NCBI RefSeq assembly: GCF_900101815.1
Contig: NZ_FNAO01000003.1
Location: 1 to 64,000, forward strand
From: Pricia antarctica
Lineage (GTDB): Bacteria > Bacteroidota > Bacteroidia > Flavobacteriales > Flavobacteriaceae
Reading direction: 5' to 3'
DNA: 64,000 bases
This document shows, piece after piece, positions 42,144 to 50,650 of the stretch. The first letter of the stretch is position 1, and each line of letters opens with the position of its first letter. A program made the position numbers and the translations under genes. The notes under the pieces were generated by a model. It searched no databases and was not told the origin of the DNA. It saw nothing but the letters and a program-made list of their open reading frames with translations.

Positions 42144-42515
42144 ATGAAACAATGGTTGCTCGTTTTTATCGGGGGCGGAATAGGAAGTGTATTGCGATAT
42201 CTTATCTCCAAGTCTTTCAATACTTATTTTGCATATTTTTACCTTGGTACTTTTCTGGTCAACATTTTGGGCTGTCTATTCATTGGCCTCATATTGGGCC
42301 TTTCGTTCAAGGGCAATTACCTCTCCGAAAATCAGATTTTGATACTGGCCACCGGCTTCTGCGGGGGCTTTACCACTTTTTCCACTTTTGCCTTTGAAAA
42401 ACACGCCCTTTTAACTGCGGGTGAGCTTTTTCATTTTTCCTTCTACCTTATTAGTAGTATCGTCGTCGGCATAGCGGCCGTCGCATTCGGCCTTTGGCTG
42501 GCGAAAGTCCTTTAA
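42144..42515 (+). CDS. crcB: Fluoride exporter CrcB (Fluc)
   Basis: This 123-aa protein with four membrane helices has the Fluc motifs GGGIGSVLRYLIS, GTFLVNILGCLFIG and GFCGGFTTFSTFAFE (phenylalanine-lined pore segment). As a dual-topology dimer it forms a fluoride channel in the inner membrane. A single gene suggests a homodimer. I looked for a fluoride riboswitch in the 86 bases upstream and did not find one. Confidence 0.94.
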   Translation: MKQWLLVFIGGGIGSVLRYLISKSFNTYFAYFYLGTFLVNILGCLFIGLILGLSFKGNYLSENQILILATGFCGGFTTFSTFAFEKHALLTAGELFHFSFYLISSIVVGIAAVAFGLWLAKVL

Positions 42516-42730: not shown

Positions 42731-42807
42731 ATACCCCAAAATTTCAAGGGTATAAATTATTAATACTATAAAAATGGAATCAATACCCCTAATTTTTTAT
42801 GGGGTAT
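42731..42807. promoter_or_regulatory. Two ATACCCC inverted repeats, candidate operator of the PII-Amt operon
   Basis: ATACCCC at 42731-42737 pairs with GGGTAT at 42748-42753. A second, longer copy has ATACCCC at 42783-42789 and GGGGTAT at 42801-42807. The left arms are 52 bases apart, about five helical turns. The second copy ends 13 bases before the -7 element TACATTTG. The identical words in an otherwise A/T-rich region suggest a dimeric regulator. The protein is unknown. Confidence 0.55.
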
Positions 42808-42820
42808 ATTTTAATTAACA

Positions 42821-42828
42821 TACATTTG
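42821..42828 (+). promoter_or_regulatory. Candidate promoter of the PII-Amt operon
   Basis: TACATTTG matches TAnnTTTG, 25 bases before the PII ATG. The -33 region lies inside the right inverted repeat, so a bound protein there would block or assist polymerase. Confidence 0.5.
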
Positions 42829-42852
42829 GCGCTCTTAACATAAATCAAACAA

Positions 42853-44575: not shown

Positions 44576-45646
44576 ATGAAAGCGATTACATATACAAAAT
44601 ACGTAAAAAATCTTGTTTTATTGGGATTACTACTCTTTTCGAACGTAGCTATTTTTGCGCAGGAGGAGGAAGACACGGAACCGAAATTCACTATTAGCGG
44701 CTCAATCGATGCCTACTACCGGGCAAATTTAAACGGGGATAACTCAGCACCGGATGGTGTGCCCAATGCAGCTCCAGGTTCATCATTTGCCAATTTACCC
44801 GGATTCGCTCTGGGAATGGCAAACGTCATTTTGGGCTATGAAGGCGAAAAAGCAGGCTTCGTAGCTGATTTGGTTTTTGGCCCTAGAGGTACGGATGCCA
44901 TTTTTGCCTCCCCTATTTACTCGGCCACCGGCAATATTGTCAATCAACTTTATGGCTATTGGAACGTTTCCGATAATGTAAAATTAACTTTGGGGAATTT
45001 CAATACGTTTTTGGGCTATGAGGTTATTTCTCCAGTTGCCAATTTTAACTACAGCACTTCCTATTTGTTTTCTTACGGACCTTTTAGCCATACCGGTTTG
45101 AAAGCGGATTTTACGCTGTCAGAAGATTTCAGCATGATGCTGGCCGTTATGAACCAAACGGACATTACAGAACTCAATTTGACCGGAAAGTATGCCTATG
45201 GTGCACAATTGGGGTATAGCGGACAATATCTCAATCTCTTGATCGATAATGGCTCTTATGAATTAGACTATACCGGAGGATTTAACCTTTCGGAATCTTT
45301 TTTCTTAGGGATTAATGCCGCTTATTTCGACGGAGACGAAGGCATAGGAAACTTTGCCGGTGCTGCTTTGTACCCCCAATATACTACCTCCGAAAATTTT
45401 ACGATTGGATTGCGGGGTGAATATTTTACGGAAACTGATGGATTTGGGGCCATTGGTACTGCTGAGGCCGATGATAGTGTTTTTGCCGTGACCTTAACGG
45501 GAAGCGCCACCATAGGCAATTTAATAATCAAACCGGAATTACGATTGGATACCGCATCCGACGAATCCGAAAATTTCTTGGATAGTGATTTGATGGCACA
45601 GAAGAGCCTATCCTCTTTCGTTCTGGCCGCCATCTATTCCTTCTAA
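44576..45646 (+). CDS. Outer-membrane porin-like beta-barrel protein (BBP2 type)
   Basis: This 356-aa protein has a signal peptide ending IFAQ and then KFTISGSIDAYYRANLN, the usual opening of the Bacteroidota BBP2/OmpL-like porin group. Barrel strands follow, with repeated aromatic residues (LYGYWNVSDNVKLTLGNFNTF), and the end LSSFVLAAIYSF is a terminal barrel strand. A porin next to PII-Amt suggests ammonium or small-nitrogen entry across the outer membrane. That role is inferred from position only. Confidence 0.87.
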   Translation: MKAITYTKYVKNLVLLGLLLFSNVAIFAQEEEDTEPKFTISGSIDAYYRANLNGDNSAPDGVPNAAPGSSFANLPGFALGMANVILGYEGEKAGFVADLVFGPRGTDAIFASPIYSATGNIVNQLYGYWNVSDNVKLTLGNFNTFLGYEVISPVANFNYSTSYLFSYGPFSHTGLKADFTLSEDFSMMLAVMNQTDITELNLTGKYAYGAQLGYSGQYLNLLIDNGSYELDYTGGFNLSESFFLGINAAYFDGDEGIGNFAGAALYPQYTTSENFTIGLRGEYFTETDGFGAIGTAEADDSVFAVTLTGSATIGNLIIKPELRLDTASDESENFLDSDLMAQKSLSSFVLAAIYSF

Positions 45647-50152: not shown

Positions 50153-50650
50153 CTAGGGCATGACTTTTTTTGAACTTGAACTTGATCCTTGCGCCTGAGC
50201 TTTCTTCCCGATCGGCGCATTTGTTACGACATTCGAAAGTATAATATGCGTGCGGGTTTCGCCGTATTGGATGAGTTTATCGATAAATTCCTCGAGGTGA
50301 AACTGGTCGTTGAGTATTACTTCCATAACGATATTCTCGTTTCCGGTGATGCGATAGCAATTGACCACTTCCTTATAGGTCGTTACCATCGCCAGAAAAG
50401 GTTTTAATTTGCCCATAAAAGCCCGCAACGTAATGATGGCCTTGAGCTGATGCCCCGTTTTGGCGTGGGATACCTTGGCCTTATACCCTTCGATGATTCC
50501 GAGATCTTCCATTTTTTTTACCCGCTCCGCTACGGCGGGAGGTGTTAGGCCTACTTTACGGCCGATACTGGCGAAGGTTTCCCTTGCGTTCGCTTGCAAA
50601 CAGTCCAATATTTTCCAGTTCAAATCGTCGATAGTTGAATCCAAAGTCAA
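50153..50650 (-). CDS. Lrp/AsnC-family transcriptional regulator
   Basis: This 165-aa protein has an N-terminal helix-turn-helix (DDLNWKILDCLQANAR, IGRKVGLTPPAVAERVKKME) and a C-terminal RAM ligand domain (VVNCYRITGNENIVMEVILND). The extra basic-serine tail (GSSSSSKKVMP) is unusual. The start must be TTG 50650 or TTG 50644, because a stop lies directly upstream in frame and no ATG precedes the helix-turn-helix. A perfect palindrome sits 24 bases upstream. It probably senses an amino acid; neighbours do not show which. Confidence 0.92.
   Translation of the reverse strand: MTLDSTIDDLNWKILDCLQANARETFASIGRKVGLTPPAVAERVKKMEDLGIIEGYKAKVSHAKTGHQLKAIITLRAFMGKLKPFLAMVTTYKEVVNCYRITGNENIVMEVILNDQFHLEEFIDKLIQYGETRTHIILSNVVTNAPIGKKAQAQGSSSSSKKVMP

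Follow-up and report, generated by a model that had tools for sequence, protein, structure and literature searches.

A paired palindromic element upstream of PII-Amt genes is a putative operator of nitrogen assimilation in Flavobacteriales

In Bacillota, the MerR-type regulators GlnR and TnrA act through TGTNAN7TNACA operators, palindromes with an A/T-rich centre and arms 14 bp apart that precede glnA, amt-glnK and gltB-type genes. In cyanobacteria, the sites of the activator NtcA (GTAN8TAC) lie near -41 of sigma-A type promoters of a nitrogen regulon, and the glnA RNA motif (RF01739) is a riboswitch candidate. NtrC works from paired palindromes before glnK-amt and glnA on sigma-54 promoters, whose -24/-12 consensus is TGGCAC-N5-TTGC. 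The TetR repressor AmtR of Corynebacterium binds palindromes before amt-glnK, glnA and gltBD; we know of no fixed pair among AmtR operators. For the Flavobacteriales, a search of open-licence PubMed Central found no described nitrogen regulator and no ACCCC/GGGGT operator. The available part of a study of Flavobacterium psychrophilum reports one sigma-54 factor and three proteins with a sigma-54 activator domain, and links the predicted sigma-54 promoters to envelope stress and gliding (PMC9723704).

Here we analyze a paired element in a 64,000-nucleotide stretch of the Pricia antarctica genome (contig NZ_FNAO01000003.1, positions 1 to 64,000; hereafter the window). Both of its inverted repeats lie inside the 337-bp gap between a gene ending at 42515, which from its sequence we take to be crcB-like, and the PII gene; PII, Amt and a porin gene follow in this order on one strand (Table 1). 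An earlier note on this DNA had described the repeats as sharing one seven-base arm, standing 52 bases apart and overlapping the -33 zone of the PII-Amt promoter. The separation is exact, with left arms starting at 42731 and 42783. The common arm holds for the two left arms, which are identical, but not for the right arm of the distal repeat, where AGGGTAT leaves 6 of 7 arm bases paired (an alternative reading is ATACCC-N11-GGGTAT). Likewise, only the proximal repeat overlaps the -33 zone, the distal one being centred about 53 bp further upstream. Against the NCBIfam model TIGR03644 ("probable ammonium transporter, marine subtype"), the Amt protein scores 443.8 bits, the cut-off being 514.

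Table 1. Features of the PII-Amt locus of P. antarctica (positions in the window)
Feature	Position	Strand	Basis
Distal palindrome, ATACCCC-N9-AGGGTAT	42731..42753	+	sequence; better kept of the two in relatives
A-rich element ATAAAAAT, midway between the palindromes	42768..42775	+	each column at least 70% conserved in 70 aligned PII promoters
Proximal palindrome, ATACCCC-N11-GGGGTAT	42783..42807	+	perfect arms; overlaps the place of the -33 element; conserved
-7 box TACATTTG, sigma-A type, fits TAnnTTTG	42821..42828	+	sequence; conserved position in relatives
PII, GlnK-type nitrogen regulatory protein, 112 aa	42853..43191	+	PF00543, E 3.7e-23
Amt ammonium transporter, 412 aa	43219..44457	+	PF00909, E 9.3e-116
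Outer-membrane porin, probable third gene of the operon	44576..45646	+	PF07642 (BBP2), E 8e-61

The element shares with GlnR/TnrA operators an A/T-rich centre and the kinds of genes that follow, but its arms are different (ACCC/GGGT throughout the flavobacterial sites, with no match to TGTNAN7TNACA), it comes as a fixed 52-bp pair, and a MerR regulator is only a candidate here. The likeness to NtcA lies in a nitrogen regulon with sites near a sigma-A type promoter; here, however, the ACCC/GGGT arms are 14-15 bp apart and GTAN8TAC is absent from the repeats. Paired palindromes before glnK-amt and glnA recall NtrC, but the promoter has a TAnnTTTG box instead of -24/-12 elements and the sites abut it: by eye, TTGGCGC occurs within 42826-42841, with no TTGC at -12. 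AmtR operators stand before the same amt-glnK, glnA and gltBD genes, yet they differ in sequence and are bound by a TetR repressor, and the pair here is fixed.

The earlier note proposed a genome search for ATACCCC-N10/11-GGGGTAT; a search for the exact palindrome with spacers of 8 to 13 bases (ATACCCC-N8..13-GGGGTAT) returned a single copy in the 4.85-Mb genome, the proximal repeat itself. A lone degenerate site is not rare: the pattern allowing two mismatches matches twice in the window against 0.71 expected, a number reached in 13 of 100 shuffles. The loose pattern ACCCC-N9..13-GGGGT gives 24 forward matches in the genome against 14 for a reversed control and is thus mostly chance, and a single-site model (R1) was too weak for genome-wide use, several of its matches being intragenic. 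What is unusual is the pair: nowhere else in the window is its twin score of 28.8 reached (23.6 at the next unrelated place), and 20 Markov-shuffled windows give 25.1 at most.

The pair is conserved before PII-amt operons of relatives, where the earlier note would have taken its absence as a refutation. PII was matched at E ≤ 0.001 in 27 of 60 relatives. Among 25 close orthologues (L003-L027, the window's own locus excluded), the repeats lie directly upstream of PII in 14 and upstream of the porin gene in 7 more where that gene comes first, so that 21 carry the module, 2 lack it and 2 are cut by a contig end (L023, L025). The two that lack it are in genomes G023 and G007, which do have PII and count against the operator reading. 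A second set comprised the best 80 of 577 loci, from Zobellia, Maribacter, Flagellimonas/Muricauda, Robiginitalea, Arenibacter and others, of which 79 were testable after exclusion of L196, which has no upstream sequence. A twin score of at least 24 was reached by 72 of these 79 PII upstream regions against 2 of 3160 shuffles (0.06%), and a score of at least 26 by 52 of them against no shuffle; the relatives share kinship, and counts over loci are not independent.

The geometry is kept along with the motif. Searched between 46 and 58 bp in the same 79 loci (from the best 80 of 577), the step between left arms was 52 bp in 36, 53 in 30, 51 in 7, 54 in 5 and 57 in one, and hence 51-54 bp in 78 of 79. 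A TAnnTTTG box follows the proximal left arm at 36-39 bp in 70 of the 79. The consensus of these 70 PII promoters reads aaTACCCctAAAaTttt.GGGgtatttTT.TtATAa..ATAAAAAT.a.......acCCcctaatTTTt.agGGT.Tt.att.ttTTaAcATATATTTG, in which the distal palindrome is nearly symmetric and the proximal one weaker, its right arm most of all. The BBP2 porin adjoins PII-amt in 75 of the 80 loci (best 80 of 577) and is the first gene of the operon in other genera, which suggests that it provides an outer-membrane step in the uptake of ammonium or small nitrogen compounds.

The same element occurs at other nitrogen genes of the relatives: between the divergent glnN (GSIII) and glnA (GSII), upstream of gltB and upstream of ald. 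The 52-bp step was present in each of the ten glnA promoters checked, and the distance from the proximal ACCC to the -7 box was 33-37 bp (search ranges, 49-55 bp for the step and 28-42 bp for the box). In several of them the proximal site is reduced to its left half; what stays constant is therefore that the left arm recurs after five helical turns. The array can exceed two units, since the ald promoter of genome G029 (L053, 1396-1510) has three ATACCCC left arms in the same direction, 52 and 54 bp apart, before its alanine dehydrogenase gene. We built a model of 104 positions (R2) from 35 modules, searched 36 genomes with it and counted unique places by hand. At E ≤ 1e-5 it found 49 places in the 36 genomes, 48 of them upstream of PII-amt, porin-PII-amt (where gltB usually has the same upstream region), glnA/glnN, ald or a stand-alone amt; the single exception precedes a lipoprotein-like gene. 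Once the 13 modules used in training are removed, 35 of 36 places remain upstream of nitrogen genes. Within the P. antarctica genome, R2 matches before PII (1.8e-16), between glnN and glnA (1.5e-9, L248) and, weakly, before gltB (0.004, L249); no ald gene was found in the stretch of this genome that was examined. From its presence at amt operons, glnA/glnN, gltB, ald and other amt genes, the element is best described as a conserved, putative operator of a nitrogen-assimilation regulon, and the suspicion of the earlier note that a nitrogen regulator acts at this promoter gains support from the same distribution.

Two further observations concern related sites. Stand-alone amt genes with the paired element in relatives (L255, L267, L294, L295, L297) encode proteins whose starts differ from that of the window's Amt. 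A single palindrome, AAACCCC-N8-GGGG, immediately precedes or overlaps the beginning of a gene for a LytTR-type response regulator in L095, L107 and L097, from three genomes; L095 is in the P. antarctica genome itself (C19:133108). This palindrome has neither a partner nor the -7 geometry.

R2 was also run, under stricter filters, on 148 genomes from across the phylum. Of the 15 genomes listed for the window's family it matched 13; beyond the family it gave four marginal matches (5e-4 to 8e-4), none upstream of nitrogen genes. Direct reading of glnN upstream regions is more sensitive. Within the order, this reading covered 13 glnN loci: 4 belong to the window's family, and the other 9 are spread over seven further family codes. 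The best palindrome was equalled by at most 4 of 100 shuffles in 7 loci (codes f1, f5, f7, f10 and f13), one of which, in G045, has a full pair 53 bp apart. Three of the remaining six show half-site pairs that are not significant alone (G037, G049 and G055, with 43, 46 and 10 of 100 shuffles as good) and three show nothing; G019, G030, G040 and G053 are site-bearing by this reading. Among 28 glnN loci outside the order, L462 beats 60 of 60 shuffles, L475 is equalled by 4 of 60, and the rest are at the level of chance. The element thus extends to further families of the Flavobacteriales upstream of glnN and looks specific to this order, as far as these upstream regions tell.

We consider, with a probability of about 0.8, that the pair is a tandem operator for one dimeric regulator of flavobacterial nitrogen assimilation, through which sigma-A RNA polymerase would be recruited when nitrogen is scarce. 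The motif, its geometry and conservation, the target genes and the -7 box can all be read in the DNA. The fixed 52-bp step, the constant orientation to transcription and the TAnnTTTG box point to a protein-DNA geometry at a sigma-A promoter, and the target gene set points to nitrogen. For the -7 element of sigma-A promoters, the available part of the F. psychrophilum study gives the consensus TAnnTTTG, located at -12 to -5 (PMC9723704). With the box placed there, the centres of the palindromes would fall near -38 (proximal) and near -91 (distal), counted from the inferred start site. One dimer would occupy the better-conserved distal palindrome and another the weaker proximal palindrome, in place of the -33 element. 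Because 52 bp is about five helical turns, both would sit on one face of the DNA and could touch, possibly across a bend at the A-rich middle. We infer that a protein binds, that binding is cooperative and that nitrogen limitation is the signal; the bound protein would then bring the polymerase to the TAnnTTTG box and raise expression of PII, Amt and the porin, of glutamine synthetase and glutamate synthase and, where present, of alanine dehydrogenase. The 2-3 bp variation of the arm-to-arm spacer across aligned PII promoters is unusual for a rigid dimer and counts against a dimer operator.

The bound protein probably activates rather than represses. Among 70 promoters, 11 have TTG in the -33 zone, where shuffled segments give 33.5; this shortage favours dependence on an activator, although the GGG arm may itself produce it. 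With the same operator and regulon, the protein could instead repress, by blocking the -33 zone under nitrogen excess. Repressors overlapping the promoter are a common kind and the proximal site does overlap it, but the better-conserved site is the distal one, 53 bp upstream, and the missing -33 element leaves nothing to block, so that we regard repression as the less likely mode, if a serious one. Data from outside the order warn against assuming a direction of regulation: in Prevotella ruminicola, the available part of a published study reports higher amtB, glnK, glnN-2 and gltBD with plentiful ammonium (PMC5552732). That the arms are complementary, with variable, A/T-rich loops, could also speak for action at the RNA level, with a pair of hairpins forming in a leader whose promoter lies further upstream. 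Such a reading is very improbable, given that the element lies upstream of the conserved -7 box, that CCC and GG are invariant instead of covarying, and that the outer pairs are often broken. Unlike the cyanobacterial glnA RNA motif, the module has no match in Rfam in six loci, including L222, at E up to 5.

As to the protein that would bind the tandem operator, the window holds a gene of the Lrp/AsnC family (50165-50641, minus strand; PF13404, PF01037) with no ATG at the expected start. A gene of this type lies within 7 kb of PII-amt in 56 of the 80 loci (best 80 of 577), and another type of the family adjoins ald, both of which could designate an Lrp/AsnC protein, such as the product of 50165-50641, as the regulator. 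The phyletic pattern contradicts this: G042 and G048 (99% complete) and G045 (92%) have a site upstream of glnN without any PF01037 protein, and G013 has the module but a single Lrp gene, of the universal type. A search for autoregulation found no operator before the six Lrp genes of P. antarctica, before the universal Lrp type in relatives or before the short MerR gene of P. antarctica, which tells against both families, and we reject an Lrp/AsnC regulator as highly implausible. In several PII-less genomes, an AsnC/Lrp gene lies about 20 kb from glnA.

The short MerR-type protein (PF13411; 109 aa in P. antarctica, L389) occurs as one short copy per genome examined and is present in 43 of 43 genomes, which is weak evidence, as presence does not discriminate among proteins that every genome has. 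A distance of 14-15 bp between the arms fits MerR-type operators. Of 29 genomes counted as site-bearing, G037, G049 and G055 among them, 28 have an Asn in the wing that none of the 6 site-less genomes has (Fisher 4.3e-6; the column ranking second gives 3e-3). The pattern is post hoc, found after looking; the site-bearing G019 has Ser in the wing, and glnN itself is absent from three of the six site-less genomes. On a tree that leaves out the wing column, and with G037, G049 and G055 excluded from the test, site and wing state change together in, on average, 2.9 of 3 supported independent pairs and never in the opposite direction; with three such pairs, significance is out of reach (sign test, p 0.25). 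The short MerR protein is therefore a post hoc lead and not a finding, and as the regulator it is doubtful. A fuller version is just as speculative: this near-universal 109-aa MerR protein might be the nitrogen master regulator of the Flavobacteriales, a TnrA-like activator from another branch of the MerR fold, whose wing Asn would help to read ACCC/GGGT and for which two dimers 52 bp apart would form the obligate activating unit.

The shared site at many flavobacterial nitrogen genes points to an undescribed, putative nitrogen regulator. Since the element defines both a regulon and a fixed geometry, it offers a direct handle for isolating this regulator and brings the nitrogen response of a large and ecologically important order within reach of testing.
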